Positions 3,522-31,706 of a DNA stretch of 64,000 nucleotides are shown piece after piece (positions within the stretch are counted from its first letter, which is position 1; every line of letters starts with the position of its first letter). Source of the stretch: Engelhardtia mirabilis (GTDB lineage Bacteria > Planctomycetota > UBA1135 > GCA-002686595); assembly GCA_007751255.1 (NCBI GenBank), contig CP036296.1, positions 1,364,001-1,428,000 of the forward strand, read 5' to 3'. The notes below the pieces were generated by a model that worked only from the letters and a program-made list of their open reading frames with translations, searched no databases and was not told the DNA's origin. The translations under genes were made by a program, and so were the position numbers.

Positions 3522-6044
3522 GTGAGCTCCGCCGAATACGAACAGCTCCTGTCCCAAGGCGCCTGGGTCCGCGACCTGGCGCGTCGGCTCGTGCGCGATC
3601 CCGACCTGGCCGACGACCTGGCCCAGGAGGCCTGGCTCGCCGCCGCTCGCATCCGTTGGAGCGAGGTCCACTCGCCCCGGGCGTGGATGGCGACGGTCCT
3701 GCGCCGCGCCCTGCGGGAGCGGCTGCGGGGGGAGGAACGTCGCGCCCTGCGCGAGCGGTCGAGCTCGCGACCCGAGGCCGTCGACGCCGACCCCGCGGAC
3801 ATCGTCGCCCGGGCCGCGGCCCATCAGGACGTGGTCGAGGCCGTGATGCAGTTGCCCGAGCACTACCGGCTGGTTGTGCTGCGGCGCTACTTCGACGGTC
3901 AGAGCCCGGAGGAGATCGCGCGCGCGACGAACGTGCCGGTGGCGACGGTCAAGACGCGGCTACAGCGCGGGCTCGCGGCCCTGCGTGAGCGGCTGGACCG
4001 CAAGCACGGGGGCGATGGTCGCTCCTGGGCGGTGGCATTGGCGCCCCTGGCCTGGCGCGGTCACGAGCCCTTTGCAGTCCTGTCGCCCGCGGCGATCGTG
4101 GCAGCGGCGACGGCGACGGTCGCCGCGGTCGTACTGGCCCTCTTCTTCGCGCTGCGCCCGCCCGCGAACCTCCCGGCCGGAGCGAACGCGCCGGCCGCGA
4201 CCGCCGCGCTCGCGGAAGCGCCGCCGACAGTGGTGAACTCCGTACCGCCGGGATCCGAGGACGCGCGCCGCCGGGCCGTTGCTGTTGCGCCGACGGAGGC
4301 GGGACCGGTCGGAACTGCGGCCCGCGGCTTGGCCCTCGACGCGGGACCACGCCACCCGATCACCGCCGACGTGCGCGACTTGGACGGCCGACCGGTCGCC
4401 GGCGTGCTGGTCCGCTTCGAGTCCGAGCGCGCCACCAGCACCGCGATCGCCCTGTCCGACGACCAGGGCCGCGCTCGCTTGAGCACCGCGTCGCCCCCCG
4501 GGACCCTCGACTGCGGCGACTCCGCTTGGGCGGCCGTGGCGCCGTTGCGGATCACCGAGCTCTCCGAACGGCGCGTGACCCTGATCGTGGCGAGGCGGAT
4601 CGAGCGCACCGGTCGCGCGGTCGACCACTTCGGCGTCGGCGTCGGTGCCGCGGAGTTGGCCTTCGAGCTCCCCGCGCCCGCCGGCCCCGGCGCGAGCGAA
4701 GCCGTCGCGGCTCGCGCGACCACCGACCCGAGCGGGGCCTTCGCCTTTGCCGCGCCCGACGCCCCCGGCGCCGTGATCGCGGTCACCGCACCGGGTCGCG
4801 AGACCCTGCGCTTCCCCGTCGCCGAGCTGGGTCCGATGCCCTGGACCCTGGTCCTGCCCTCGCCCGGAGACCTGGCCCTGCGCGGCCGCGTGTTCGACGG
4901 CGCCGGTGCACCGTTGGCCGCCGCACGCTTGGCCCTCGACGGAGTCCTCGTGCCCCTGGCCGCCGATGGCTCCTTCGCGCTCACCGCCCGCTCGGGCGAA
5001 CTCGTGGCCTGGGCGCCGGGCTACGCCAGCGCGCGGACGGAGATCGACGCCGACGCCAGCGCTCCAATCGACCTCGAGCTCTTGCGCGCGCCCGACCTGG
5101 TCGGGGTGGTGCGCGACCGTGCGGGCGAGCCCGTGCCCGGCGCGCTGGTCTGGGACAGCCTCGCCGTGCCGGTGCTGTGGGACCAGGACCTGGGTGACGT
5201 GCTGTGGCTCTCGGCCGAGGTCGGCGCGGCCGCGGCGCAGGCCCCGGTGGAGTTCCCGAGCCTCGGCGCGGCCGAGGTGGAGACGGGCTCGGGTTGGAAG
5301 CCCGTCCGCGCGGACGCCGCCGGCCGCTTCGTCCTGCACGGCGATCCTTCCCGCGCCCGTCACCTCGTGGCCCTCGCGACCGAGAGCCACGACGTGGGCG
5401 AGTTCGACTTGGCGGCCGGCCTCTCCTTTCCCTGCGAGCTGATCCTCGACGAACCGGCGCGCCCGGGCGCCCTCGAGGGGCGCGTGATCGACAGCACCGG
5501 CGCACCCCAGCGCGGCGTGCAGGTCGAGTCGATGGCCCGCGTCCTCTCCGCGCGCTGCGGCACGCTTCAACTCGAAGTCGGCCTGGTGCTCGAGCGAGGT
5601 GCTCGAACCGACTCCGCCGGTCTGTTCCAGATCGACCGGCCCCAGCCCGTGGGGCACCTGTTCCAGTTCATCGGCGAGCGCAGCCTTCCCCGACGGGTCG
5701 ACTCCGGCCTGGCGCAAGGCCCCGATGCGGAGATGGGTCGCCCCCTGCGCGGCTTCGAGCTCAACGTCTACCGCGCCGTGCCCCTGGACCTGCGCGGGGA
5801 CTGGCCCGCGGGGACGCGGCTGTTGGCGCAAGGAAGCGAGGGCAACCCGCTGTTCATGGCCCACCGCCGCGGACGCCACGTGGAGTGGTTTCGGGGCAGC
5901 GTGCCCGCGGAGCTGGGACCGGCGAGCCTCATGGGCGAGCCGACCCTGGCGCGCATCGCGGTGGAGGGGACCGGCCAGTTCATCGACGTCCTGCCCGAGG
6001 CCGTGATCGAGGTCTCGCCGGCCGCCATCGACCGGTCCCGCTGA
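3522..6044 (+). CDS. ECF sigma factor fused to TM helix and CPR-like repeats
   Basis: About 840 residues from a GTG at 3522, chosen because sigma homology starts there (SSAEYEQLLSQGAWVRDLAR); the frame is open upstream and no Shine-Dalgarno is evident, so the start is uncertain. Residues 10-75 are sigma-2 (DPDLADDLAQEAWLAAAR), 105-160 sigma-4 with its helix-turn-helix (SPEEIARATNVPVATVKTRL). A single hydrophobic helix follows near 190-212 (TATVAAVVLALFFALR), then an Ala/Pro linker and at least four carboxypeptidase-regulatory-like beta-sandwich repeats (GRVFDGAGAPLAAARL, GVVRDRAGEPVPGALVW, GRVIDSTGAPQRGVQVE). The inferred topology is a cytoplasmic sigma domain tethered to an extracytoplasmic sensor-like region. 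No separate anti-sigma gene is adjacent. A paralogue lies at 18985-21603. Confidence 0.85.
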   Translation: MSSAEYEQLLSQGAWVRDLARRLVRDPDLADDLAQEAWLAAARIRWSEVHSPRAWMATVLRRALRERLRGEERRALRERSSSRPEAVDADPADIVARAAAHQDVVEAVMQLPEHYRLVVLRRYFDGQSPEEIARATNVPVATVKTRLQRGLAALRERLDRKHGGDGRSWAVALAPLAWRGHEPFAVLSPAAIVAAATATVAAVVLALFFALRPPANLPAGANAPAATAALAEAPPTVVNSVPPGSEDARRRAVAVAPTEAGPVGTAARGLALDAGPRHPITADVRDLDGRPVAGVLVRFESERATSTAIALSDDQGRARLSTASPPGTLDCGDSAWAAVAPLRITELSERRVTLIVARRIERTGRAVDHFGVGVGAAELAFELPAPAGPGASEAVAARATTDPSGAFAFAAPDAPGAVIAVTAPGRETLRFPVAELGPMPWTLVLPSPGDLALRGRVFDGAGAPLAAARLALDGVLVPLAADGSFALTARSGELVAWAPGYASARTEIDADASAPIDLELLRAPDLVGVVRDRAGEPVPGALVWDSLAVPVLWDQDLGDVLWLSAEVGAAAAQAPVEFPSLGAAEVETGSGWKPVRADAAGRFVLHGDPSRARHLVALATESHDVGEFDLAAGLSFPCELILDEPARPGALEGRVIDSTGAPQRGVQVESMARVLSARCGTLQLEVGLVLERGARTDSAGLFQIDRPQPVGHLFQFIGERSLPRRVDSGLAQGPDAEMGRPLRGFELNVYRAVPLDLRGDWPAGTRLLAQGSEGNPLFMAHRRGRHVEWFRGSVPAELGPASLMGEPTLARIAVEGTGQFIDVLPEAVIEVSPAAIDRSR

Positions 6045-6100
6045 ACCGAAGCCAGGGGCGAGGGGTGGCGCCCGCGTGGGATTCGGCTTATCCCTCGGGC

Positions 6101-6748
6101 ATGAGCGGCCGTTCCCAGTTCGACATCGACCGACTGATCCTCGTCGACGGCGAAGACCGGGTGGTGGGCGAGGCCGGCAAGGCCGAGTGCCACCTGGAGG
6201 GCGGTCGCAAGCACCGCGCCCTGGCCGTCGTGGTCTTCGATGGCGAGGGTCGCCTGCTGCTCGCGCGCCGCGCGGCGGCCAAGCCCCTGTGGCCGGGCTC
6301 CTGGGACGCGACCATCGCCAGCCATCCGCGCCCGGGTGAGGACTACGTGGTCGCGGGCCGGCGCAGGCTGCTCGAGGAGTTGGGCGTCGAGCTCGAGGCC
6401 GAGCTGCTCGGGCGCTTCGACTACCGCATCGAGTTCGAGGCCGTGGGCGTCGAGGACGAGGTCTGCGCGGCGCTGATCGCGCGGCTCGGAGGCGATCCGC
6501 CGGCGCCGGTCGCAGCCGAGGTCGACGGGATCCGTGCGGTGACGCTCGAGGCCTTCCTCGACGAGGCCGCGGACCCCGCGGCGGGCATCTGCCCCTGGGC
6601 GCCATTGGCCGTGCTCGCCGCGAGCTTGGCGCCGTCCCCGCCGGCGGAGCTCGCCGCACTCGCGCGTCCGGCCCTGCGCCAGCGCTTGATCGACGCCGCC
6701 GACGCCCACCTGGGCATCGGCGGCTGGCGCATGCTCGACGCGGGCTGA
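6101..6748 (+). CDS. Idi-like Nudix protein lacking the isomerase cysteine
   Basis: 215 residues from ATG 6101; the frame continues upstream but homology begins here. It follows type 1 isopentenyl-diphosphate isomerase along its length: KHRALAVVVFDGEGRLLLARR, WPGSWDATIASHP, the Nudix-like helix AGRRRLLEELGVEL, EDEVCAAL, and a C-terminal PWAPLAV. Aligned to E. coli Idi from memory, metal ligands H25, H32, H69, E114 and E116 correspond to H31, H38, H75 and the EDE motif, but the proton-transferring Cys67 (CGHP) is Ala73 here (ASHP). Known Idi chemistry needs that cysteine, so this may be a Nudix hydrolase of another diphosphate, or an isomerase using a different acid. No mevalonate or MEP genes are nearby. 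Confidence 0.75.
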   Translation: MSGRSQFDIDRLILVDGEDRVVGEAGKAECHLEGGRKHRALAVVVFDGEGRLLLARRAAAKPLWPGSWDATIASHPRPGEDYVVAGRRRLLEELGVELEAELLGRFDYRIEFEAVGVEDEVCAALIARLGGDPPAPVAAEVDGIRAVTLEAFLDEAADPAAGICPWAPLAVLAASLAPSPPAELAALARPALRQRLIDAADAHLGIGGWRMLDAG

Positions 6749-6806
6749 GTCCGCTGCCAGAGCCGGGCCGCAGTCGGCACCGACGACCGCGCTGGGATGC
6801 GCGCGC

Positions 6807-10571
<3,765 letters not shown>

Positions 10572-10575
10572 CGGG

Positions 10576-11514
10576 TCACACCGGTCCCCGCCGGGCGTTG
10601 GCCAGCAGGGTCATGAAGTGGGGGGGATGGGGGTCGCGGGCGACGCGCTGGACGCGAATGGCGTCGAAGCCGGCGCGGGCGAGGTGGTCGGTCAAGCCGG
10701 CCTCGGTGAAGCCGAGGTGGCGGTGTTGGAGCTTGTCGCGGACCCAGTCCTCGCCGTGGGCGAGCAGGTCGAGCACGAGCAGCTGGCCGTCGGGGCGCAG
10801 GATCCGTCGCGCCTCGGTCAGGGCGTGGACCGGATCCTCGGCGTGGTGCAGGGCCTGGCTGAGGACCACGACGTCGTGGGAGGCGTCGGGCAGGGGGAGA
10901 TCATCGAGCTCGCCGACCACGTACTCGAGGTTGCCGAGGCCGGCGGCGGTCGCCCGCGTGGCGAGCTGGTCCAGCATCTTCTCGGACAGGTCGACCGCGG
11001 TGACGGACTCGGCCACCTCGGCCAGCATCAGTGTCAAGAGCCCATCGCCCACGCCAAGGTCGGCGTAGCGCGCGCGGGGGGCGAGGCTCAGAAGGCCCCG
11101 GGCCAGGCCCTCCCAGGTGCGCCCGGGCAGGGCCAGCTCGCCGAACTTCGAGGCAACGCGGTCGAAGTAGGAGCGGTCGGCCTCGCGCTTGCGGCGGATC
11201 AACGCCTCCAGGCCGGCCAGGTCGGCCTCGAACTCCGGCGGCAGGGAGTCCTCGGCGATCACGCGGCCCAGGAGTTCGGCCGGCGCGTCCGGGTGGATCG
11301 AGTAGAGGCTGCGCCGACCGAGGCGCCGGTCGACCACCAGGCCGACCTCCTTGAGCAGCGCGAGGTGGGCCGAAACCCTGCTCTGGCCGAGGTTTAGGAT
11401 CTCGACCAGGTCCGAGGTCGAGAGCTCGTCGCGCCGCAGCAGGTGCAACAGGCGCAGACGGTTCTCGTCGCCCAGGGCCTTGAGCAGACGGGTGGTTTCG
11501 GAGAGGACCAGCAT
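10576..11514 (-). CDS. ArsR-type regulator fused to SAM methyltransferase (SahR-like)
   Basis: 312 residues from ATG 11514. Residues 5-90 are a winged helix of the ArsR family ([20 protein letters not shown], then [20 protein letters not shown]). Residues about 145-300 are a class I methyltransferase fold ([51 protein letters not shown]). This two-domain layout is that of SahR, the S-adenosylhomocysteine-responsive repressor of SAM-cycle genes in Proteobacteria, where the methyltransferase-like domain senses SAH. Lying directly upstream of metH supports the same role. No arsenic-type metal cysteines are present in the recognition helix. An imperfect dyad overlaps the region just before its start codon, consistent with autoregulation. 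A true arsenite-type or enzymatic methyltransferase role is less likely. Confidence 0.85.
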
Positions 11515-17994: not shown

Positions 17995-18851
17995 CACAGG
18001 AGCAGCACCGGGATTGCGCGGATCTCGACCGCCAGGGCGTAGGCCTGGCCGTGCATGGCCAACTGCTCGTCGTCCCGCGTGTGCATGGCCAGGAGCTCGA
18101 CGCCGCGGCCCAGGATCGCCTCGCGGATCTCGCGCAGCCGGTGGCCGACCGTGACCAGGGTCTCGACTTCCAGGTCGAGCCCCGCGGCCGCGAGCCCGCT
18201 GGCGCAGCGCTCGGCGTAGTCGCTCGGCTCGTTGAGCAGCCGCCCGCGGATCTTCTCTCGCGCCGTGGCGGTGTCGATCTCGGCAATCTTCGAGATGGCG
18301 TCCATGTAGCGCTCGAAGACCGCGTCGTCTTCCACATGGGCCAGGATCAGTTGGCCGCCCGGCGCGCACAGGGACGCCGCCCAGTCCACCAGGTCGGCTT
18401 CCCCAGTCAGGTGCCCGGACAGGGCCATGGTGCGCCGCGGCGTCCGGGTGCCCGCGCCCTCGCGCGCCCGCCCCGCGGCCGGGTGTGGCATCAACAGCAC
18501 CGGACTGGGCGCCACTTGGGTCAGCACGTCCACGTGCTCGCCCAGGCTGTGGGGGAAGCGCCAGGCTTCGCTGCCCAGATTCCGGTAGGTGCAGACTAGG
18601 TCCGGCGCGGCCTCGGCGACGTTCTCCAGGAGCCCTTCGAGGGTCCGGAAGTCGTCCACGTGGGCGTCGCGCCACTCCACTTCGCTGCCGAGCGGCTCGA
18701 GGAAGCTGCGTACGCCGTGCCCGAAGTCCGTGGCCGGGGCACCGTCCAGATCGCTGACCACCAGCACCCGGCGGACCGCCGGCCGCTCGAAGCTGAAGGT
18801 CGCCTTGTCCGCCGAGCGGAAGGCGCTTTCGAACGCGTCGACGTTGGTCAT
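17994..18851 (-). CDS. Tandem universal stress protein (USP) domain protein
   Basis: 285 residues from ATG 18851. Two USP-type alpha/beta halves can be traced: about 25-135 (RRVLVVSDLDGAPA through TQVAPSPVLLMP) and 140-285 (ALSGHLTGEADLVDWAASL, ILAHVEDD, GRGVELLAMHTRDDE, ending AIPVLLL). The ATP-binding GxxG-x9-GS/T loop is not recognisable in either half, so it may be a non-nucleotide-binding UspE-like form. It is first in a translationally coupled set with the SLC13/NhaD-like permease and the zinc-ribbon membrane protein, suggesting it regulates the transporter. It diverges from the sigma fusion gene at 18985 across 133 bases. Confidence 0.75.
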   Translation of the reverse strand: MTNVDAFESAFRSADKATFSFERPAVRRVLVVSDLDGAPATDFGHGVRSFLEPLGSEVEWRDAHVDDFRTLEGLLENVAEAAPDLVCTYRNLGSEAWRFPHSLGEHVDVLTQVAPSPVLLMPHPAAGRAREGAGTRTPRRTMALSGHLTGEADLVDWAASLCAPGGQLILAHVEDDAVFERYMDAISKIAEIDTATAREKIRGRLLNEPSDYAERCASGLAAAGLDLEVETLVTVGHRLREIREAILGRGVELLAMHTRDDEQLAMHGQAYALAVEIRAIPVLLL

Positions 18852-18984
18852 GGGGGCGAGGATAGGGGTCTGCCGGCCGCGATCCAGGCTCACCCCGGGG
18901 ACGGCCGAGGGCTTCGGGCCAGCCGGCGCGGCAAATCCCACGGATTGCTGCGCAGGATCGCAGCCGAGCGGGGACTCCCCTTCG

Positions 18985-21603
18985 ATGACCACGCCCGACA
19001 TCACCGACCTCAGCCCCGAGCAGCTCAAGAGCGAGCTGTCGTGGCTGCGCGGCCTCGCCTCGCGCCTGGTGCGCGAGGCCGACGTGGCCGAGGACCTGGT
19101 GCAGGACACCCTCGTCGTCGCCCTCCAGCGACCCGGGGGCGGTCGGCCCTTCCTGGCCGGTGTGCTCCGCAACCTCTCCCTGCGCCGTGGGCGCGGGGAG
19201 GCGCGGCGGCGGGTGCGCGAGCGTCGGGGCGCACGGCCGGAGGCCGTGGACAGCGCCGCCGAGCTCGTCAAGGAGATCGCCAACCAACGGGAGCTCGTCA
19301 GCGCCGTGCTGCGCCTGGACGAGCCCTATCGGGAGACGCTCCTTCTGCGGTTCTACCGTGACCTCTCGCCCAAGCGCATCGCCGCGCAGTCAGGCGTCTC
19401 GGTCAACACGGTGAACAGTCGGCTCCAGCGGGGCCTGGCGCAGCTGCGCTCGGGTCTCGACGCGGAGTACGGCGACCGCCGGACGTGGTGCCTAGCCCTC
19501 CTGCCGCTGGTGGATCCTCCTCCGCCCCCGGCTTGGCCCATCGTCGGAGCCGTCACCGTGAAGACCACCCTCGCCGCCGCCGCCCTCGTCGCCGCCGTCT
19601 CGGCCGGCGTGTTGATCCCCCTGCTCTCCGGACCCGAGGAGGCGGCGACCGCGACCGGAGCGCTGACCGCGGATCTGGCTGTCGCCTCCGTGAGCCAGCC
19701 TTCGGTGCTCGACGGCTCCGAGCCCCTGCGTCCGGCGGACATGGAGCGTTCCGTCGGCGCGGGCCGCACGGCCGTCGTCCGCACCGGGCTCGCCGCGGCG
19801 GACGACGGGCAACCCCAGCCCGCCGCGACACTGGTCAACGTGCGCGGCCGTGTGGTCGACGTCGACGGCCTGCCCGTTGCGGGCGTCACGGTCTCCGCCC
19901 GCGCCGACGGACGCACCCAGCAGGCCACCAGCGGCGACGGCGGCGCCTTCGTGCTCGAGGCGACACCCGAGGACCAGGTCACGATCCGCGTCGAGGGCGA
20001 CGATTGGGTCGCCCTGCGCGAAGGCTTCTGGGATACCAGCCGGCAGTTCGAGCCGATCGTGCTCGTGGCGCGGCCCCTGGAGCTGGCCGGTCGCGTGGTG
20101 GACGTCTTCGGCACGCCGGTGGGGGAGGCCCGCCTCGACTACCGCCTGCCCTCCGACCTGACCACCCGCGTCGGCCTGGACCTGGACTCGACCGTCGAGC
20201 GCACCTGGCAGGCGCGCACGGATGCCGACGGTCGCTATCGGCTGAGCGCCGTGCCGCGGGTCGAGGGCGCCCTGGTGGGCGTCGTGCACACGGGCTACGC
20301 GGCGCGCTTCCTCGACGCGCCCCTTCGCTCGGCGGAGAACTTCGACGTGGTGCTCGAGCCCGACGCGATGCTCTCGCCCCTCGCCATCCGCGGCCGCGTG
20401 GTGGACGGAGAGGGGCGGCCGGTGGAGGGTGCCCTGGTCTCCCTCGGGGCGACCGTGGGCAGCACCGATCGCGTCGGCGTGTTCCAGCTCGATCCGGTGC
20501 GCGCCCTGGACACGAGTGTCTTGAAGGCCGCGCGCGCCGGCTTCCTGCCGGCCGCACTCCAGCGTCCGGGAGAGCCGTCGGACGATGACACCGGCTGGCC
20601 CTCCTTCACGACCCTGACCCTCGGCGGCGCGAGCCTCTCGATCGCCGGCGTCCTCGTGGACCAGGACGGCGAACCCGTCGCCGGCGCGCGGGTCTGGGTC
20701 GACGACGGTGAGCCCTTCGGCGCCGTCGGCGCCTACCCCTTGCAGCTCGAGGCGATCCTGGCCGGCGGCGCGCCGCCCGCAGACGGCTTCGGGATGCAGG
20801 CGCAGATGCCGACCGCCGACGGGGACGAGCGCTTCGGTTGGTACACCCTGCCCAGCGAGCCCGACGGCATGTGGTTCTACACCACCACCGACGCGGGCGG
20901 AGCCTTCGTGCTGGAGGGCTTGACCGACCGCGACTACACCCTCGCCGCAGTCCTCGACGAGCCCCTGGCGCGGGTCACCAGCGGCCCCTTCGCCGCCGGC
21001 AGCGAGGGTGTCGTGGTCGAGGTCGACGTGCCCGAGGTCCACACCACCCTGCGCGGCCGCGTGGTCGACGAGCGCGGCGAGCCGGTGTCCGACATCCGCC
21101 TGCAGCTCTACGAGATCACCGAGACCAAGCGCGCGCGGGTCCTGGGCGGCTCCACGGAGATGAACCTGCTGGTCTCCCAGATCCCCGAGGGCACCGACGA
21201 AGAGGGCCGCTTCGAGCTCCCCATGGTGCCCGTGGAGGGCGCGTACCTGTGGGCTACCGGCGACGGCATCCTGCCCACGCCGCGCTCGATCCCGGCCGAC
21301 GTGGATCCCGAGAACTGGGTGCTCGAGCTGCCCTGCCGGCGCCGGCTCCAGGTCGAGCTGGCCCTGTCCGAACGCGCCGACGGTTTCGAGGTCCTTGCCG
21401 CCGACGGCTCCCGCCTGCCGCTCTACGAGACCTCCGCCTCCGCCGCCCGCTCCACCTGGCGCGCCGCGATCGTCGAAGGCGTCTCGTCGATCCAGAGCGT
21501 GGGCCTGGCCGCCCGCACCCTGCGCCTGTGGAGCGGTGAGGAGTTGGTGGAAGAGGTCCCCGTGAACCTCTCGGCCGAGGGCGTCAACACCATCCGACTC
21601 TGA
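18985..21603 (+). CDS. ECF sigma factor fused to TM helix and CPR-like repeats (second copy)
   Basis: 872 residues from ATG 18985. Sigma-2 is near residues 12-65 (READVAEDLVQDTLVVALQR) and sigma-4 near 105-160 (SPKRIAAQSGVSVNTVNSRL). A hydrophobic helix lies at about 192-214 (TTLAAAALVAAVSAGVLIPLL). Five carboxypeptidase-regulatory-like repeats follow: GRVVDVDGLPVAGVTVSA, GRVVDVFGTPVGEARLDY, GRVVDGEGRPVEGALVSL, GVLVDQDGEPVAGARVWV and GRVVDERGEPVSDIRLQL. It has the same plan as the gene at 3522-6044 but the primary sequences differ widely, so the two probably control different genes. The sigma-2 segment is short and no ECF-type anti-sigma gene is adjacent. The inferred sensor is the extracytoplasmic repeat array. 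Confidence 0.88.
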   Translation: MTTPDITDLSPEQLKSELSWLRGLASRLVREADVAEDLVQDTLVVALQRPGGGRPFLAGVLRNLSLRRGRGEARRRVRERRGARPEAVDSAAELVKEIANQRELVSAVLRLDEPYRETLLLRFYRDLSPKRIAAQSGVSVNTVNSRLQRGLAQLRSGLDAEYGDRRTWCLALLPLVDPPPPPAWPIVGAVTVKTTLAAAALVAAVSAGVLIPLLSGPEEAATATGALTADLAVASVSQPSVLDGSEPLRPADMERSVGAGRTAVVRTGLAAADDGQPQPAATLVNVRGRVVDVDGLPVAGVTVSARADGRTQQATSGDGGAFVLEATPEDQVTIRVEGDDWVALREGFWDTSRQFEPIVLVARPLELAGRVVDVFGTPVGEARLDYRLPSDLTTRVGLDLDSTVERTWQARTDADGRYRLSAVPRVEGALVGVVHTGYAARFLDAPLRSAENFDVVLEPDAMLSPLAIRGRVVDGEGRPVEGALVSLGATVGSTDRVGVFQLDPVRALDTSVLKAARAGFLPAALQRPGEPSDDDTGWPSFTTLTLGGASLSIAGVLVDQDGEPVAGARVWVDDGEPFGAVGAYPLQLEAILAGGAPPADGFGMQAQMPTADGDERFGWYTLPSEPDGMWFYTTTDAGGAFVLEGLTDRDYTLAAVLDEPLARVTSGPFAAGSEGVVVEVDVPEVHTTLRGRVVDERGEPVSDIRLQLYEITETKRARVLGGSTEMNLLVSQIPEGTDEEGRFELPMVPVEGAYLWATGDGILPTPRSIPADVDPENWVLELPCRRRLQVELALSERADGFEVLAADGSRLPLYETSASAARSTWRAAIVEGVSSIQSVGLAARTLRLWSGEELVEEVPVNLSAEGVNTIRL

Positions 21604-23745: not shown

Positions 23746-26700
23746 ATGTCGCTCGCCCTCGGCGCCCTCGCCCTCGGTCTCGCGTCCCTCGGAACCCCCG
23801 CGCCGCCCGATGCGGACGAGGACTACCAGTACCTGGCGGGCCTGGCCCAGCGAGGCCTGCACGAGCTGGTCGTGCCCGAGGCGCGCAAGTTCATCGGCGA
23901 GTACCCGAGCGACTCGCGCTTGCCCCAGGCGCGCTATCGCCTGGGCGACGCCCTCTTCGCCCTCGATCGCTTCGAGGAGTCCCTGGCCGAGTTCGAGCGC
24001 CTGGACCGGGTCACGGGCTTCGACCTGGCCTTCGAGGTCGACCTGCGCCGCGGCCAGTGCCAGCTCGAGCTGGGCCGGCCGGAGCTGGCGATCGAGCCCC
24101 TGCGCTCGGTGGCCGACGGGGGGCCGCAGTACCTGGACCGCTCGGCGACCTTCCTCTTGGCCGAGGCCCTCTTGCGTTCGGGCGACGCGGAGCGAGCCGA
24201 CCGGCGCTACGCCGAGGTGCTCGAGGACGGCGGCGGCGACCTGGCCGCCGACGCCTGGCACGGCCGCGTCTGGTGCGCCTTCGACGCCGGTCGCCACGCG
24301 GACTGCGCCGAGCGCGCGGCCGAGTTCTTGCGGCGCTTCGAGTCCGACCCGCGTGCCGACGAGGTGCGTTTCCTCGCGGCCGAGAGCGACCTGGAGCGCG
24401 GCCAGGCCGAACGCGCCCTGGCGGGCTTCCTGGCCGTGCGCAGCGGCGACCAGGTCGACGCCGCCCTGCGCGGGGCGGGCTTCGCCGCTGCCGCTCTGGA
24501 CCGACACGATGAGGCCGCCGGCCACTTCGCAGCCCTGCTCGAGCGCTTCCCGGACAGCCGCTTCGCCGCGGAGTGTGCCCTGCACCGCGGCATCGCCCTG
24601 TTGCGCGCGCAGCGCGTCGACCAGGCCCGCGGCGCCCTCGACGACCCGCGCGTGCCCGCCGGGGCCGAGGCCGAGTACTGGCGCGCTCGCGCCTCCGCCG
24701 CCGCCGCCGACCACGCCGCAGCCTTGAGTCACGCCGAAGCCGGCCTGCGGACCAGACCTGAGGGCGAAGTCGCGCGCCGGCTGCAAGTGGCGCGCGGCGA
24801 CGCGCTGTTGGCCTTGGGGCGCAACGCCGAGGCCGCCGACGCCTTCGAGGCCGGGGGCGGCGGCTACGCCCTCTACTCGGCGGCCGTGGCGCACCTCGAA
24901 GACGGGCGCGCCGAGGAAGCCCTGGCCCTGGCCCAGCGCGTCGCGGCGGGTGGCGGCGAGGAAGCCAGCGCGGCAGCGGTGTTGGTCGCCGAGGCCCAAC
25001 TGGCCCTGCAGCGCTTCGACCAGGCCGAGCAGTCCTTCGCGGCCCTGGTCCAGAAGGAGGGCGACGCCGCCGAGCGTGCGCGGCTCAGCGTGCGCTTGGG
25101 TTGGGCGCGCATGGGCCGGGGCGACGCCGCGGCGGCGCGCGAGGCCTTCCTCGTCGGGACGCGCGCGCCCGAGGGCAGCGACGTCCTGCCGGAGGCGACC
25201 TTCATGGCCGCGCGCTGCGCCGATGAGTTGGATCGCGGCGAGGAGGCCATCGACGGCTACGCGACCTTCCTCGAGCGCTGGCCTGCCGCTGGGCGACGCA
25301 CCGAGGCCCTGGTGCGGCTCGCGCGCTTGGTACCCGGCGAGGACGGTGAGCGGCTGCTCGAGAGCGCGGCGCGGGACGCGGGCGAGCTCGGCCTGCGCGC
25401 GCGCTTCGACCTGGCCGAGCGCCTCTCGGACCGCGGCGAGTTGGCGCTGGCGCGCGGGCACTACGCGGCGCTGGTGGGCGCGCAGATCGAGCGCGAGCTG
25501 CGCCAGAGCTCGACCTACGGCCTGGCTTGGTGCGAGTTGAATCTGGGCGAGGTGGCAGCCGCGGCGGCGAGGCTCGATGCCCTGGCACGCGAGCGCGATG
25601 TCGAGCCCGAGTTGAAGTCCTCGGCCCTCGAGCTGCTGGTCTGGGCCGCCCGCTCCAGCGGCGACGCCGCGGCGACGCGCGAGGCCTATGCACGCTTCGC
25701 CGCGACCAAGCCGGACGACGCGCGCCTCCTGGCCGCGGCGCGTTTGACTTCGGCCGCGCTCACGGAGGCCGGCGCGACCGAAGCGGCTCTGACCCTGCTC
25801 GGTGAGGCGAACCGCGGTTTGGCCAGCCCCGAGGCCAAGGCCGGTGCCCTGGTCGAGGCCGCGTGGGTGCGGCTCGACGCCGGCGAGGTCGAGCGCGCCG
25901 AGGCCGAGTTGGCCCAGGCGCGCAAGCTCGCGCCGGCGAACGCCTCCCTGGCCGAGGCGAGCTTCTTCGTGGGCGAAGCGCGCTTCGAGCGCGGCGAGGA
26001 CGAGGCGGCCGCGGCCGACTACGCCCTGGCAGCGCCGCACCTGCCGGCGGAGTTGGCCCCGGCACTGCTCTACAAGTGGGGCTTCGCCGAGCTGCGGCGC
26101 GGCAACAGCGCCGCGGCGGAAGCGCGCTTCGCGCAGCTCCTGGCCCAGCACCCCGACAGCGAATTGGTGGGGGAGACGCTGTTCCTCGTGGGTGAGGCGC
26201 GCTTCCGCGACGAGCGCTTCGAGCAGGCCATCGCGCCCCTCGAGCAGGTTCTGGCCGAGCACCCGCGGCACCAGGTCGTACCCAAGGCGCGCTTTCGCCT
26301 GGGCGTGGCCGCCTCCCGGGCCGGTCGTCACGAGCGCGCGGCGGAGGTGCTCGGCGAGCTCGCCCGCCGCAACCCCGACTTCGAGCACCTGGCCGAGGCC
26401 GACCTGTGGCGCGGCCGCTCGCTCGCGGCCCTGGCCCAGACCCGCGCCGCCCGCGCCTGTTTCGATCGCGTGATCGCTGCCGACGACGGCGTGCTCTCGG
26501 CCCGCGCGCGGATCGAACTCGGACGACTCGACACGGCCGCCGGCGAGCTCGACGCGGCCCTCTCGCACTTTCTGAAGGTGGCGGTGCTCTACGCCCTGCC
26601 CGAGGAAGTGGCCGAGGCCCTGTTCCTGGCGGGGCAGGTGCTCGAGGCCCAGGACCGCGCCGACCTGGCCAAGGCGCGTTACGTGGAAGCGAGCGAGAAG

Positions 26701-26763
26701 TACCCGCAGACAGCCTTCGGTGTGCGCGCGGCGGAGCGCCTCGCCGCCATGGGCTCGCGCTGA
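23746..26763 (+). CDS. 1005-residue secreted TPR-repeat protein
   Basis: From ATG 23746, chosen because a signal peptide starts there (MSLALGALALGLASLGTPA). Almost the whole protein is tetratricopeptide-like helical hairpins of about 34-36 residues; clear ones are near 25-60 (VPEARKFIGEYPSDSRLPQA), 65-100, 760-800 (GNSAAAEARFAQLLAQHPDS) and 800-870 (FEQAIAPLEQVLAEHPRH). The repeats resemble those of periplasmic YbgF/CpoB and BamD-type scaffolds (FLVGEARFRDERFEQAI). It is first in an operon with ExbB, ExbD and a TonB-like toroid protein, 23 bases upstream of exbB. The likely role is a periplasmic scaffold for that machine. Its Ala content is very high and no other domain is evident. Confidence 0.85.
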   Translation: MSLALGALALGLASLGTPAPPDADEDYQYLAGLAQRGLHELVVPEARKFIGEYPSDSRLPQARYRLGDALFALDRFEESLAEFERLDRVTGFDLAFEVDLRRGQCQLELGRPELAIEPLRSVADGGPQYLDRSATFLLAEALLRSGDAERADRRYAEVLEDGGGDLAADAWHGRVWCAFDAGRHADCAERAAEFLRRFESDPRADEVRFLAAESDLERGQAERALAGFLAVRSGDQVDAALRGAGFAAAALDRHDEAAGHFAALLERFPDSRFAAECALHRGIALLRAQRVDQARGALDDPRVPAGAEAEYWRARASAAAADHAAALSHAEAGLRTRPEGEVARRLQVARGDALLALGRNAEAADAFEAGGGGYALYSAAVAHLEDGRAEEALALAQRVAAGGGEEASAAAVLVAEAQLALQRFDQAEQSFAALVQKEGDAAERARLSVRLGWARMGRGDAAAAREAFLVGTRAPEGSDVLPEATFMAARCADELDRGEEAIDGYATFLERWPAAGRRTEALVRLARLVPGEDGERLLESAARDAGELGLRARFDLAERLSDRGELALARGHYAALVGAQIERELRQSSTYGLAWCELNLGEVAAAAARLDALARERDVEPELKSSALELLVWAARSSGDAAATREAYARFAATKPDDARLLAAARLTSAALTEAGATEAALTLLGEANRGLASPEAKAGALVEAAWVRLDAGEVERAEAELAQARKLAPANASLAEASFFVGEARFERGEDEAAAADYALAAPHLPAELAPALLYKWGFAELRRGNSAAAEARFAQLLAQHPDSELVGETLFLVGEARFRDERFEQAIAPLEQVLAEHPRHQVVPKARFRLGVAASRAGRHERAAEVLGELARRNPDFEHLAEADLWRGRSLAALAQTRAARACFDRVIAADDGVLSARARIELGRLDTAAGELDAALSHFLKVAVLYALPEEVAEALFLAGQVLEAQDRADLAKARYVEASEKYPQTAFGVRAAERLAAMGSR

Positions 26764-26786
26764 CCGACCGCAAGGGCGAAACGACC

Positions 26787-27584
26787 ATGACGATTCAGAC
26801 GATGACGATGCCGCTCCTCGCGCAAGGCGCTCCCGACGACCTCGAGTCCATGTTCGAGCTGGTCGTGGCGGGCGGTCCGATGATGGTCCCGATCGCGCTC
26901 TGCTCGGTCGTGGCCGTGGCCTATTCGGTGGAGCGTTGGTTGCGCTTCCGGCCGGGTCTCTTGGGTTCGCGGCGCTTCGGGCGCGACGTGGTCGCCGCCG
27001 TGCGCGAGGGCGGCGTCGAGGGCGGCCTGACCCTGGCGCGCTCCAAGCAGAGTCCCCTGGCGCGCATTCTCGCCCTGGCCCTCGAGCGCGCGGACGAGCC
27101 CTTCCTCGACCGGGAGAAGATGGTCGGTGACTTCGCCTCCAACGAGATCCGGCGCCTGGGCAACAACCTGCGCCCGCTGCTGCTCGTGTGGTTGATCGCG
27201 CCGCTGCTCGGTCTGCTCGGGACGGTGTGGGGCATGATCGAGGCCTTCGGCGAGATCGCCGGCAGCGCGGGGATCGGGCGTCCGGAGCTCCTGGCCAGCG
27301 GCATCTACCAGGCCCTGACCACCACCGCCGCCGGCCTGGCCGTGTCGATCCCCGCGGTGGTCTGCTACCACCACCTGCGCGGGCGGCTGGACGCCTTCGG
27401 CCGCCGGGTCGAGGACCACGCGCGCGATCTGGACGCGGCCCTGCGCGAGCGCAGGGCGGAGCTCGCCCCGGCCCCGGTGGTCGAGCGCAGCAAGGCCCCG
27501 AGCGCGAACGGCTCGGCTCACGAAGCGCAGACCGCCCAGACTCCGCCGGTGCCTGCATCCGTTCCCATCGGTACCGAGGCCTGA
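26787..27584 (+). CDS. exbB: ExbB/TolQ/MotA-family proton channel subunit
   Basis: 265 residues from ATG 26787. Three membrane helices: about 27-46 (GGPMMVPIALCSVVAVAYS), then a cytoplasmic domain with SPLARILALALERADEPF, then 130-152 (LLLVWLIAPLLGLLGTVWGM) and 178-200 (LTTTAAGLAVSIPAVVCYHH). The GLLGTVWGMIEAF and ALTTTAAGLAVSIPAV segments are the conserved ExbB/TolQ pore helices. With ExbD it forms an inner-membrane proton channel that energises a partner spanning the envelope. The C-terminal 40 residues are an Ala/Pro-rich extension not found in E. coli ExbB. exbD follows after 3 bases. Confidence 0.93.
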   Translation: MTIQTMTMPLLAQGAPDDLESMFELVVAGGPMMVPIALCSVVAVAYSVERWLRFRPGLLGSRRFGRDVVAAVREGGVEGGLTLARSKQSPLARILALALERADEPFLDREKMVGDFASNEIRRLGNNLRPLLLVWLIAPLLGLLGTVWGMIEAFGEIAGSAGIGRPELLASGIYQALTTTAAGLAVSIPAVVCYHHLRGRLDAFGRRVEDHARDLDAALRERRAELAPAPVVERSKAPSANGSAHEAQTAQTPPVPASVPIGTEA

Positions 27585-27587
27585 GCC

Positions 27588-28004
27588 ATGCAGATCGACG
27601 ACGGCCGAGGCGAGGAGGAGCTGCAGCTCAACCTGGCGCCGATGATCGACGTGGTCTTCCTGCTCTTGATCTTCTTCATGGTCGCCACGACCTTCGTGGA
27701 GCCCGAGAAGCAGATCGACCTCGAGCTGCCCCAGGCCGAGAGCGGTTCGGAGCCCGAGGAGCTGCCCGACGAGCTCTTGATCCAGGTCCTGCGCGACGGC
27801 CAGATCCTGCTCGGCACCGTGGAGCACACGCGCGAGTCCCTGCGCGCCGAGCTCGAGCGCACGGCCCGCGCGCGTCCCTCGACTCCGGTCACGGTGCGCG
27901 GCGACGAGGCCGTGGACTACGGACGCGTGGTGGGGGTGCTCGACCTCTGCCACTTGGTCGGATTGACCGACACCAGCCTGATCGTGCGCGAATCCGCTGA
28001 CTGA
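27588..28004 (+). CDS. exbD: ExbD/TolR-family protein
   Basis: 138 residues. The single helix near 17-38 (APMIDVVFLLLIFFMVATTF) carries Asp21, equivalent to the proton-carrying Asp25 of E. coli ExbD. The periplasmic domain (about 40-135) is acidic at first (EPEEL) and has the ExbD/TolR fold pattern (VTVRGDEAVDYGRVVGVLDL). It would pair with the ExbB encoded just upstream. It starts 3 bases after the exbB stop, and the TonB-like gene starts 18 bases after its own stop behind a GGAGG site. Confidence 0.93.
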   Translation: MQIDDGRGEEELQLNLAPMIDVVFLLLIFFMVATTFVEPEKQIDLELPQAESGSEPEELPDELLIQVLRDGQILLGTVEHTRESLRAELERTARARPSTPVTVRGDEAVDYGRVVGVLDLCHLVGLTDTSLIVRESAD

Positions 28005-28022
28005 GGGCCGCCGGAGGCATCC

Positions 28023-31000
28023 ATGGAAACGCAACGCAACAGGCACCTGGGCAAGGACGTGGTCGTCGTCCTGGCCCTCGTGGGCGTCGGTTTCCTCCTG
28101 GCGTGGGTGCGCTTTCGGCCCTACCTCGGCACGGAGGGGCAGTACACCGACGGGATCGCCAGCTACGACGTGACCGAGGTCGGCTCGGTGCGCTACGCGA
28201 TCTGGGAGGCGCCCGAGTCCCTGGGTGCGGAGGTTGCGACGGCCGACGACGAGGGCCGCGCGACGGTCACGCCGGACGGTCGCCAGTTGGTCTTCGCGGT
28301 GGGCCAGCGCGGCCAGGGCGCGGACCTGTGGACCTGCGACCTGATCGACGGTGTTCCGCACGGGGCGCGGCCGTTGCGCGCGCTCAACACGCCCTCGGAC
28401 GAGCTGGCCCCCTGCTTCGGTCCCGGCGGCCTGTACTTCGCCTCCGACCGCCCCGGCACCCACGGAGGCCTCGACCTGTGGCGCGCGCCCTTCGACGGCT
28501 TCGACTTCGGAGAGCCCGAGCTGCTCGGCGGCGACCTGGCTTCGGCGGCGGACGACACCGACCCCGCGCCCCTGCCAGGCGGCGGGTTGGCCTTCGCCTC
28601 CAACCGCGACGGCGGGCGACTCGAGCAGTTCGACCTGTTCCTGGCGCGGCCGAACCCCAGCGAGCCGGGAGCCTTCCTGGTCGAGCCCCTCGCACCGCTC
28701 AACACCGGCTTCGACGAGCGCGAGCCCGCGGTGGCCGGCGACGGTCGGGTGCTGTTCTTCGCCAGCGACCGCGAGGGCGGCCAGGGGAGCTTCGACCTCT
28801 ACCGCAGCGGCCTCGACTTGGACGGTTGGAGCACGCCCCAGGCCCTCGAGAACCTGAACGGACCGGGGGCGGACCGGGCGCCGGCGCCGTCGGTGGACGG
28901 CTTCACCCTGGTCTACTCGAGCGAGTTCGAGGGCAGCGGCGCGGACCTGATGCGCGCGACCTCGCGCGAGCTGTTCCGGCGCGAGGGCGATCCGGTGGGC
29001 TTGAAGGAGCTGTTGCTCTTGGTCCTCTTGCTGCTGCTGGCGCTGTTGGCCTGGGGTGCCAAGCGATGGCGCGGCCTGGACGTCGTCTACCGCTGCTTCC
29101 TGATTTCGCTGTTGTTGCACCTCCTGCTCTTGTGGTGGTTCCGCGAGGTCTATCCGGAGTCGAAGGAGCTGGAGCTCGCCGCGCGCGAGGACGGGGTCAA
29201 GGTGCGCCTGGTCACGCGCTCCGACGGCGCGCGCGAGGGCAACGCCGAGCGCGCCGGCGAGCTCGCGGTCGAGCGCAGCCGAGCCGAGGCCGCGGGCGAG
29301 CCCCAGCGCGCGGCAGCCGAGACCTCGGCCCTCGCGGCCGCGGCGCCCTCCGCGGCAAGCCTGTCGCGGCGTGCGGCGGAACTCGGCGCCGAGCCCGTGC
29401 GGGTCGCGGCCGAGGCGGAGCGTCAGGCGCAGTCCACGGCCGACCGGGCCCAGGTGGCCGCGCCCCGCGAAGAGTTCAGCCAGCGCAGCGGCGCGGCGGA
29501 GGCTCTGGCCCTGGCGGCCAGCGAAGGCCCGGCGGCGCAGCGCGTCGAACCCGCGGCGCCGTCCGGTGAGGCGATCTTGGCCGGGCTCGCAGCGGCTGCC
29601 GCGGTGCCCTCCGCGCGCCCCTCGTCCGCGGCGATCGCGCGGCCCAGGGGCGCGGACCTGGGCGCGGCCCCCGAACGCCGCTCGGCCGAGGCGGAGCGGG
29701 TCCAGGACGGGCGCCCCGCACCCGAGGTCGCCGTCGCGAGCTTGGAAGAGACCTTCGTGCGCCGCGCGGACGCGGGCAGTGGGGAAGTCGCCCTCGAGGC
29801 CTCGAGCCAAGTGGCTTCGGCCAGTCGCGGGGCCGTCGCTGCTCCGGCCCGGCGCGAGGTCGCAGAGCCCGGTGGCTTCGCCTCACCCTTGCCCGGCTTC
29901 CAAGCCTCGGCCGAACTGGCGGGCGGGGGCGACGACGGGGCGACGTCCATGCGCGCGGCGATCGACGTGCAGCGGAGCGATTCGGCTTCGCAGGACGTCA
30001 CCGTGGCCCTGCCCGACGACGCGAGCGAGCTCGTTCCCCGTGCGACGGGCGGCGGCGAGGCGGCGCCGGAGCTGGTCGCGATGAGCTTCGAGAGCGCGCG
30101 TCGCGAGGTCGATTCAGGCCCGTCCCGGTCCGCCACGATCGGGGACGACCTGAGCCCCTTGGTCAGCGCGACCGCCAGCCCCGCGCGGGCCGCGCGACTC
30201 GATGCACCGGCCGCCATCCCCATTCCCCGCCGCGGCCTCCCGGATCTCCCCGCGCGTCACTCCCAGTCGACCGAAGTCGCCGTCGCCGTCGCCGCGCCCG
30301 ACGACGGCGGCCGGCCCGACACAGGCGTCGCTGCTGCGGTCGAGGCCAGCGCGCCCGCCAGCGCGGGGAGCAGCGCCGCCCTGGCCCTCGTACCCACCAA
30401 CCGCGTCGCCGAACGCGCGGGCACCCTCGAGCTGCCCCGCCGCCGCGGCAGCGACCTGGACCTTCCGTCCACGGCTCCCACGGGCCCGCGCTTGCCCGAC
30501 CTCGGCGGCCTCGCCGCGGCTGACACCGATGCGCCGCGCCGCCGCTGGGAGCACACCCCCTACGCCAGTCGCAGCGGCGCCGCCAAGGTGCGCGCCCTCG
30601 ACCTGCTCGGGGGATCGCAGGAGACCGAGGCCGCCGTCGCCTCCGGCCTGGCCTACCTGGCCCGCATCCAAGCCCGCGGCGGCTGGTGGGGTTCCGAGGA
30701 CGACTACGACCGCAAGTACCACCACGTGGTGATCGGCAAGACCGGCCTGTGCCTCCTGGCGTTCCTCGGCGCCGAGCACACGGCTGACAGCGCGAGCGAG
30801 CATTCCGACGTGGTGCGCCGCGGCATCGACTTCCTGCTCGGCGTACAGGACGAGCGCTCGGGCCACTTCGGCGATTGCACGTCCTACGGCCACGGCATCG
30901 CGACCTACGCCCTGGCGGAGGCCTACGCCATGACCGGCGAGGAGCGTCTGCGCAGGCCCCTCGAGCGCGCCGTGGCCCACATCGTCGCCGAGCAGAACCG

Positions 31001-31706
31001 TCGCGACGACGACCGCCTGCGCGGGGGGTGGAGCTACTACTACCCGGACGGGTCGACCTTCGACCGCTGGCCGCGGGTGTCGATCAGCGTGTGGCAGATC
31101 ATGGCACTCGAGTCCGCGCGCTTCGGCGGGATCGAGGTCGACGACGAGGTCTTGGACCTGGCCAAGGGTTTCGTCGAACGCGCCTGGGACTCAGAGCGCG
31201 GCGCCTACCGCTACAGCCACGACCCCTCGCGCCTGCGCCAGACCTACGCGATCCTGCCCGGCTCCACGCCGGCGGCGCTGTTTGCACTGTCGCTGTTCGA
31301 CGAGGACATCTCGTCCCGCGAGTACCGCGAGGCGCGGGAGTTCATCTCCGAGAAGGCGCCCCGCGGTTATCGCCACACGGGCACGGACGACTTCGTCTAC
31401 CGCGCGCGGGGCAACCTGTACTTCTGGTACTACGGCAGCCTGGCCCTGTTGCGCGCCGGTGGCGACGACTGGCGGCGCTGGAACGAGGCCATGAAGGAGA
31501 CGCTGCTGCCGAGCCAGAACCCCGACGGTTCCTGGGAGCCGATCTCCTCCTACGCCGACTACGCCGGCGACGACAGCCGCGACAAGAGCTACTCCACGGC
31601 CATGTGCGTGCTGACCCTCGAGGTCTACTACCGCTACTTCACGCCGCTCTTGTCCCAGGGCGAGGGGCCTGGGGCGGCGCCACCCGCTGGCAGCCGCGGG
31701 CGCTAG
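28023..31706 (+). CDS. TonB-like membrane protein with PD40 propeller and prenyltransferase-like toroid
   Basis: 1227 residues; GGAGG precedes the ATG. Order of parts: a membrane helix at about 10-28; a PD40/TolB-type propeller at about 70-320 (repeats such as GGLYFASDRPGTHGGLDLWR and GRVLFFASDREGGQGSFDLY); a helix at about 327-342; a second helix CFLISLLLHLLLLWWF holding Ser362 and His366 in the SxxxH spacing that TonB uses to contact ExbB/ExbD; an Ala/Glu-rich linker of about 450 residues able to span the periplasm; and a C-terminal alpha/alpha toroid at about 855-1215 of the prenyltransferase/squalene-oxidase repeat type (YGHGIATYALAEAYAMTG, GGWSYYYPDG, SISVWQIMALESARFGG). No squalene-cyclase DxDD acid motif is visible, so the toroid is probably a binding module. 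The operon context supports ExbBD energisation. Confidence 0.82.
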   Translation: METQRNRHLGKDVVVVLALVGVGFLLAWVRFRPYLGTEGQYTDGIASYDVTEVGSVRYAIWEAPESLGAEVATADDEGRATVTPDGRQLVFAVGQRGQGADLWTCDLIDGVPHGARPLRALNTPSDELAPCFGPGGLYFASDRPGTHGGLDLWRAPFDGFDFGEPELLGGDLASAADDTDPAPLPGGGLAFASNRDGGRLEQFDLFLARPNPSEPGAFLVEPLAPLNTGFDEREPAVAGDGRVLFFASDREGGQGSFDLYRSGLDLDGWSTPQALENLNGPGADRAPAPSVDGFTLVYSSEFEGSGADLMRATSRELFRREGDPVGLKELLLLVLLLLLALLAWGAKRWRGLDVVYRCFLISLLLHLLLLWWFREVYPESKELELAAREDGVKVRLVTRSDGAREGNAERAGELAVERSRAEAAGEPQRAAAETSALAAAAPSAASLSRRAAELGAEPVRVAAEAERQAQSTADRAQVAAPREEFSQRSGAAEALALAASEGPAAQRVEPAAPSGEAILAGLAAAAAVPSARPSSAAIARPRGADLGAAPERRSAEAERVQDGRPAPEVAVASLEETFVRRADAGSGEVALEASSQVASASRGAVAAPARREVAEPGGFASPLPGFQASAELAGGGDDGATSMRAAIDVQRSDSASQDVTVALPDDASELVPRATGGGEAAPELVAMSFESARREVDSGPSRSATIGDDLSPLVSATASPARAARLDAPAAIPIPRRGLPDLPARHSQSTEVAVAVAAPDDGGRPDTGVAAAVEASAPASAGSSAALALVPTNRVAERAGTLELPRRRGSDLDLPSTAPTGPRLPDLGGLAAADTDAPRRRWEHTPYASRSGAAKVRALDLLGGSQETEAAVASGLAYLARIQARGGWWGSEDDYDRKYHHVVIGKTGLCLLAFLGAEHTADSASEHSDVVRRGIDFLLGVQDERSGHFGDCTSYGHGIATYALAEAYAMTGEERLRRPLERAVAHIVAEQNRRDDDRLRGGWSYYYPDGSTFDRWPRVSISVWQIMALESARFGGIEVDDEVLDLAKGFVERAWDSERGAYRYSHDPSRLRQTYAILPGSTPAALFALSLFDEDISSREYREAREFISEKAPRGYRHTGTDDFVYRARGNLYFWYYGSLALLRAGGDDWRRWNEAMKETLLPSQNPDGSWEPISSYADYAGDDSRDKSYSTAMCVLTLEVYYRYFTPLLSQGEGPGAAPPAGSRGR

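Follow-up and report, generated by a model that had tools for sequence, protein, structure and literature searches.

The planctomycete Engelhardtia mirabilis encodes what is probably a force transducer driven by the proton motive force (PMF), in which an alpha/alpha-toroid takes the place of the end domain of TonB or TolA; a probability of about 0.7 is assigned to this reading. The system lies in a 64,000-nucleotide stretch of contig CP036296.1 (positions 1,364,001 to 1,428,000), here called the window; the genome measures 6.9 Mb and comprises two contigs. Four genes on the plus strand span window positions 23746-31706 in the order tetratricopeptide repeat (TPR) protein, ExbB, ExbD and a protein of 1227 amino acids (aa), the last gene beginning 18 bases past the ExbD stop. 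The observations behind the reading are this gene order, the domains of the encoded proteins, their modelled topology, the conservation of motor and docking residues, and recurrence in the phylum. The original prediction, made from the sequence alone, had called the last protein a TonB analogue ending in a toroid instead of a TonB C-terminal domain; motif conservation, the topology model and the adjacency to ExbD support this, and docking and energisation are what we infer from them.

The proposed docking site is a Ser-x-x-x-His (SxxxH) motif, S362 and H366, in the third of three transmembrane (TM) helices. Its conservation among orthologues had been set beforehand as a test of the original prediction, and it held: in an unanchored alignment of 64 long-form frames of more than 1000 aa, the window's included and one (L132) open at its 5' end, H366 is His in all 64 and S362 is Ser in 59, with Ala in the rest. 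TM3 carries [SA]xxxH in every long form, whereas SxxxH or AxxxH occurs in neither TM1 nor TM2 (0/64 each; the TM1 segment has at least 18 residues in 63/64). Judged from sequence, the motif in TM3 is therefore more than chance. Across 26 full-length proteins including the window's, one unanchored alignment shows no invariant residue in the membrane block other than S362 and H366, and their columns are again invariant in a second; the table of neighbouring positions was anchored on the motif, so the invariance is read from the unanchored alignments only. The isolates Poly30 and Pla163 contain the whole operon, with the motif as SLLIH and SLVAH.

AlphaFold (AF2) models of single chains cover residues 1-405 and the toroid. 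The former, at a predicted local distance difference test (pLDDT) score of 85, contains TM1, a propeller and a TM2-TM3 hairpin. A Lys/Arg-rich loop sits between TM2 and TM3, both in the alignment of the 26 full-length proteins and in the model, and on the modelled topology the toroid is periplasmic. A cytoplasmic toroid is disfavoured because of this loop, and because several motif-free sibling toroids have N-termini that read as signal-peptide-like. Pfam matches in the 1227-aa protein are PD40 (E 2.5e-18) and, at the C-terminus, SQHop_cyclase_C at 17.9 bits, below its cut-off of 26.1. The propeller, the toroid and the Ser/His membrane helix that had been predicted for a gene 18 bases behind ExbBD were thus all recovered by gene calls, Pfam and AF2. 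The linker had been described as about 450 residues of Ala and Glu; the length was about right, but the composition is Ala-rich with Arg, Ser, Glu and Pro (Ala 24.7%, Arg 10%, Ser 10%, Glu 9%, Pro 8%). Across the 64 long forms the linker ranges from 336 to 675 aa (median 473), with 21% Ala and 12% Pro.

The coupling of the long form to its motor genes was surveyed in named loci L077-L156, the best 80 of 172 confirmed relatives; 18 of the 80 were dropped as 5'-cut or shorter than 1000 aa, leaving 62 complete long forms. ExbD lies directly upstream of the long-form gene in 62/62, with the possible start of that gene -20 to +90 bases from the ExbD stop. ExbB is found in 61/62, the exception (L097) ending at a contig edge, and a TPR gene was detected by BLAST in 57/62. 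Two of the five TPR misses, L088 and L097, are at contig ends, L154 has a clear TPR frame and L130 a frame with TPR_8 over the cut-off; in L123 no TPR frame was found among the three frames tested. The synteny survey proposed with the original prediction thus bears out the arrangement.

The motor genes themselves exceed the curated Pfam thresholds, with MotA_ExbB at 83.9 bits (cut-off 22.9) and ExbD at 101.4 bits (cut-off 25.4). Among NCBIfam models the best for the two motor proteins are tolQ (70.7 against a cut-off of 221) and tolR (74.3 against 127.3), both below threshold, as are the exbB and ExbD models. The ExbD residue D21 is kept in 62/62 loci, and ExbB residues S40, T146, T179, T180 and P189 in 61/61; by manual count along the PDB alignment, T146, T180 and P189 align with TolQ 145, 178 and 187. 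As read from these alignments, the proton-path residues (the membrane Asp of ExbD and the Thr residues of ExbB) are intact. According to the available parts of PMC12215075, TonB Ser16 and His20 contact ExbB Ser34 and Trp38, TolA Ser18 and His22 form the same network, and the network extends to ExbB Pro190 or TolQ Pro187. S40 of the ExbB described here may correspond to the partner serine.

Table 1. Features of the operon and of the 1227-aa protein, in window coordinates.
Feature	Position	Strand	Evidence
TPR repeat protein, 1005 aa	23746..26763	+	Pfam TPR_6 E 4.5e-28
ExbB/TolQ-like proton-channel subunit, 265 aa	26787..27584	+	Pfam MotA_ExbB E 1.1e-23
ExbD/TolR-like subunit, 138 aa, membrane Asp D21	27588..28004	+	Pfam ExbD E 4.9e-29
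Putative force transducer, whole protein, 1227 aa	28023..31706	+	Open reading frame and Pfam scan
TM1, residues 2-35	28026..28127	+	AF2 model
PD40 propeller, residues 59-320	28197..28982	+	Pfam PD40, AF2, Foldseek
TM2, residues 327-348, then Lys/Arg-rich turn	29001..29066	+	AF2 model, alignment
TM3, residues 351-374, proposed motor-docking helix with S362 and H366	29073..29144	+	Model, alignments
S362 codon	29106-29108	+	Within TM3
H366 codon	29118-29120	+	Within TM3
Ala-rich linker, residues 377-845 (469 aa)	29151..30557	+	Composition
Candidate motor box, VxVRL-like, residues 392-397	29196..29213	+	Recurs here in alignments
C-terminal alpha/alpha-toroid, residues 846-1213	30558..31661	+	AF2 pLDDT 92.2, Foldseek

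The toroid belongs to a larger family. In a search of 61 genomes including the source genome, 28 others match at 49-65% identity over nearly the whole toroid, one further genome (G030) has a fragment, and the number of toroid matches per genome ranges from 1 to 18, with several in most. Among 392 genomes drawn evenly from the phylum, again including the source genome, 32 have a long-form match (E <=1e-130) and at least 76 in all pass E 1e-60, a lower bound set by this limit and by the five candidates scored per genome. Genomes are shared between L041-L068 (the 28 relatives) and the set of 80 named loci, so the two counts are not summed. Shorter paralogues begin with an APWLAISxxxH-type helix, which is followed by a linker and then the toroid, and two of them lie close together in the source genome. 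This locus, L075, has two SxxxH toroid proteins around a smaller motif-free frame of the toroid family (4793-9556; G000:C1:6225792-6230558), with no ExbB or ExbD within its 17 kb. Among 54 other toroid-family proteins that are not cut at the 5' end, a TM segment precedes the toroid in 46 and SxxxH is present in that segment in 37; four have only Ala or Gly in the Ser position, three of them a credible AxxxH and the fourth, L163, a probable signal peptide.

Motor genes recur beside toroid genes of other planctomycete families. Two sets of 20 loci were compared, one of near-relative paralogues taken from high-scoring search rows and one of distant loci (19 genomes) chosen by eye, neither of them random. 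In 10 of the 20 hand-picked distant loci the toroid gene directly follows ExbD or ExbB-ExbD, and two of these ten (L177 and L180) also have a PD40 propeller. Motor coupling thus occurs in the long form as well as in other families, and the near-relative short forms stand alone. In L178, L179 and L185-L187, the toroid gene directly follows ExbD, and the stretch examined yielded no ExbB; the gene for the channel may be elsewhere or divergent. The L180 protein (6818-11380), with propeller, SxxxH and toroid, carries a CarboxypepD_reg domain after the toroid. In L183 (7140-9314), a short-form toroid protein has a zf-HC2 domain N-terminal to its SxxxH helix, a possible sign of a connection with cytoplasmic regulation. 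Locus L071 (G000:C1:2312937-2320796, minus strand) contains TPR, ExbB and three ExbD genes with no toroid gene in 12 kb, and its motor is a possible partner for motor-less toroids.

Several observations weigh against the operon being a transducer of this kind. First, S362 is replaced by Ala in five long forms (L084, L089, L099, L113 and L155), and the positions of the Leu and second Ser in the SHLS motif as published (+11 and +15 relative to its first Ser, by E. coli numbering) vary here. Second, no counterpart of the Trp contacted in E. coli ExbB is found among the ExbB residues kept in at least 93%, which speaks against a contact identical to that of TonB. Third, the candidate motor box, a name and idea from the available text of PMC12204202, has no strand predicted in the single-chain model. 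Fourth, the full long-form toroid occurs in 29 of the 61 genomes, source genome included; the system is therefore not universal and cannot universally replace Tol-Pal. Finally, 13 of the 54 toroid-family proteins have neither SxxxH nor [AG]xxxH (counting L172, which yet shows SxxxH in another reading), so the toroid also exists without the motif, and neither the 20 near-relative loci (L157-L176) nor L075 has ExbB or ExbD beside the toroid paralogue, so toroid genes of the family are not generally next to motor genes. A control from the same genome bears on the first point: it encodes three TonB_C proteins, whose N-terminal TM helix contains SAVVH or AALVH in two cases and neither in the third, and the AALVH case places Ala at the Ser position in a TonB_C protein.

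One canonical comparison is Tol-Pal (TolQRA-TolB-Pal-CpoB), with which the operon shares a TolQ/TolR-type motor, an SxxxH helix, a long linker, a TolB-like propeller fold and a TPR protein. Foldseek of residues 1-405 against the PDB gave TolB chains at ranks 1-18 (best E 5.9e-12, TM-scores 0.39-0.43), several of these rows being the same protein in different entries and the query including the TM helices. Weighing against the Tol likeness, at the sequence level the N-terminal part scores best with PorE and OmpA-type PD40 models, far below their cut-offs, and not with TolB. The TPR protein, whose N-terminus looks signal-peptide-like, scores 189.9 bits with the NCBIfam model tol_pal_ybgF (cut-off 90.1), spread over five separate TPR stretches, and is under the cut-off for the specific models CpoB (PRK10803, 63.2 against 383) and BamD. 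Unlike in Tol-Pal, the propeller here forms part of the transducer chain and is anchored by TM helices, and the toroid replaces TolA domain III. TolB_N has no match in the source genome and is over the cut-off in 0/61 genomes, many of them incomplete, with one sub-threshold match in G015. OmpA-domain proteins are present in 61/61 genomes; no OmpA-domain (Pal) gene is found within the window, the four such places of the source genome all lying outside it; for the other loci the check covered recurrent neighbours. A canonical Tol-Pal system was rejected on the missing TolB_N and neighbouring OmpA-domain gene. A Tol-like job of linking the envelope is favoured over siderophore-type import, but only tentatively, with the odds somewhat against it.

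With TonB-ExbB-ExbD the operon shares the motor type, the docking Ser and His, and the topology of TM3; it differs in that the docking helix is preceded by two additional TM helices and a propeller. The Pfam scan detected no TonB_C (PF03544) in the 1227-aa protein, and canonical TonB was rejected on this absence. A Ton-like importer, in which the toroid would engage an outer-membrane transporter or a polymer-uptake complex and the motor would drive import, would nevertheless use the docking motif that TonB has. Planctomycetes have a wide periplasm, which the long linkers would suit, and the several toroid matches in most genomes would fit several receptors. However, no receptor-type gene recurs beside the operon: the commonest gene wholly downstream encodes a DsbH/DUF255 thioredoxin-type protein (10/60 loci, e.g., L125 11124-13283 and L136 12192-14543), and the commonest upstream of the TPR gene is RibD (8/49). 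In addition, the genome has three separate TonB_C proteins, all outside the window, and the propeller fold and the best motor models are Tol-like. Import is accordingly unlikely. The existence of a conserved partner gene beside the operon was also considered and rejected, as neighbours recur only in subsets; the recurrence of DsbH/DUF255 and RibD looks like subclade synteny.

The closest relatives are the transducers tipped with a vWA domain (Williams-Jones et al. 2025, PMC12204202), which, in the available parts of that report, combine a docking motif and a disordered linker with a C-terminal domain unrelated to TonB or TolA. In the PVC group, Planctomycetes included, their genes frequently follow those for TPR, tolQ-like and paired tolR-like proteins, and their function is described there as not established. 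The operon thus resembles them in its Ser/His TM helix, linker, non-TonB/TolA end domain and TPR-tolQ-tolR context. It differs from the systems in those parts of PMC12204202 in its toroid end (no Pfam vWA match was obtained in the 1227-aa protein), in one tolR-like gene rather than a pair, in the extra TM pair and propeller, and in a linker of ~470 residues rather than ~100. The words toroid and squalene are absent from the main text of PMC12204202, the available parts of PMC5006271 mention toroid and ExbBD terms in unrelated places only, and no paper linking a toroid with ExbBD turned up in a literature search without preprints and with few subscription journals. What is new is the toroid end domain on an ExbBD-linked transducer, vWA-tipped transducers being already known as its closest relatives. 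The layout had been proposed to differ from the TonB, TolA and Mot systems; this stands for the toroid end, and its novelty is reduced by the Tol-like propeller fold, the tolQ and tolR best models (under cut-off), the TPR protein and the vWA precedents.

The fold of the toroid raises the question of enzymatic activity. Foldseek with the toroid returned terpene cyclases and GH76/AGE-type alpha-barrels (best E 7.4e-7, TM-score 0.60), the cyclase rows at 13-18% identity. Like squalene-hopene cyclase and other type II terpene cyclases, the long-form toroids have a loose Q-G-x-W pattern (28/29); unlike them, they show low identity, carry DxDD in only 5/29, and the toroid here is set on a proposed motor-docking helix. 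A cytoplasmic terpene cyclase or prenyltransferase was rejected on the modelled topology and the DxDD count, and a thioester (macroglobulin-type) toroid on the absence of CxEQ from all 29 long-form toroids. The original prediction had named an active cytoplasmic enzyme as the outcome that would refute it; the cytoplasmic part is disfavoured on these grounds, and a periplasmic enzyme remains as a rival. Such an enzyme would act on glycans or lipids, with TM3 anchoring it near the motor or the motor positioning the toroid, and no pulling. Its structural neighbours are indeed enzymes (type II terpene cyclases, GH76 mannanases and AGE-type epimerases), motif-free sibling toroids exist, and Y955, H957, E966, W1003, Y1005 and W1024 are kept in nearly all of 76 aligned toroid-family members, an aromatic and His/Glu set whose pattern fits either a binding pocket or an uncharacterised active site. 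A mere anchor, however, leaves it unexplained that one of the three TM helices has an invariant His and that the long form is constantly coupled to ExbBD, and the DxDD and CxEQ counts also speak against this rival, making the periplasmic enzyme less probable still than import. That Ser and His are structural in the TM2-TM3 hairpin and unrelated to ExbB/ExbD, with the operon linkage reflecting co-regulation only, would accommodate an inferred docking contact, the five Ala replacements and the lack of motor genes beside near-relative short forms, but is very improbable given the linkage in all complete loci, and an intra-hairpin role cannot explain a motif that persists in single-TM short forms without a hairpin.

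As a PMF-driven transducer, the operon would work as follows. By analogy with known ExbBD and TolQR motors, an ExbB pentamer and an ExbD dimer would form a 5:2 motor. TM3 would dock on the outer face of ExbB, S362 and H366 acting as Ser16 and His20 do in TonB and Ser18 and His22 in TolA, and the segment after TM3 may engage ExbD. Motor work would then pass along a periplasmic linker of 340-680 residues to the toroid, which would hold or pull a partner located toward the outer membrane or cell wall. The TolB-like-fold propeller would lie in the same chain on the periplasmic face, with the TPR protein, a putative scaffold in the original prediction, as a periplasmic partner, and both may retain partners close to the inner membrane or let them go. 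A broader proposal is slightly favoured: a phylum-wide class of proton-driven transducers with a toroid end, one branch of which fuses a TolB-like propeller to give a compact Tol-like machine without detectable TolB_N, and whose motor-distant short forms use shared or orphan ExbBD.

Elsewhere in the window, a single open reading frame at 18589-21603 on the plus strand contains sigma-70 regions 2 and 4 together with CarboxypepD_reg domains, and looks like a sigma factor fused to domains of an extracytoplasmic type. A search for a plasmid link gave no match. For a phage link, there was no PHROG match, and the viral fold search gave one row below E 0.001, which was uninformative.

TonB and TolA are the textbook routes that carry inner-membrane proton power to the outer membrane. 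The range of end domains driven by such motors is only starting to be mapped, as the available parts of the vWA report indicate (PMC12204202). If the transducer reading is true, the toroid end domain and the often several paralogues per genome would amount to a diversification of this energy route in Planctomycetota. Proteins that databases tend to label as prenyltransferase/squalene-oxidase repeat proteins would also gain a suggested function. The operon thus suggests an uncharacterised way of passing energy across the planctomycete envelope.

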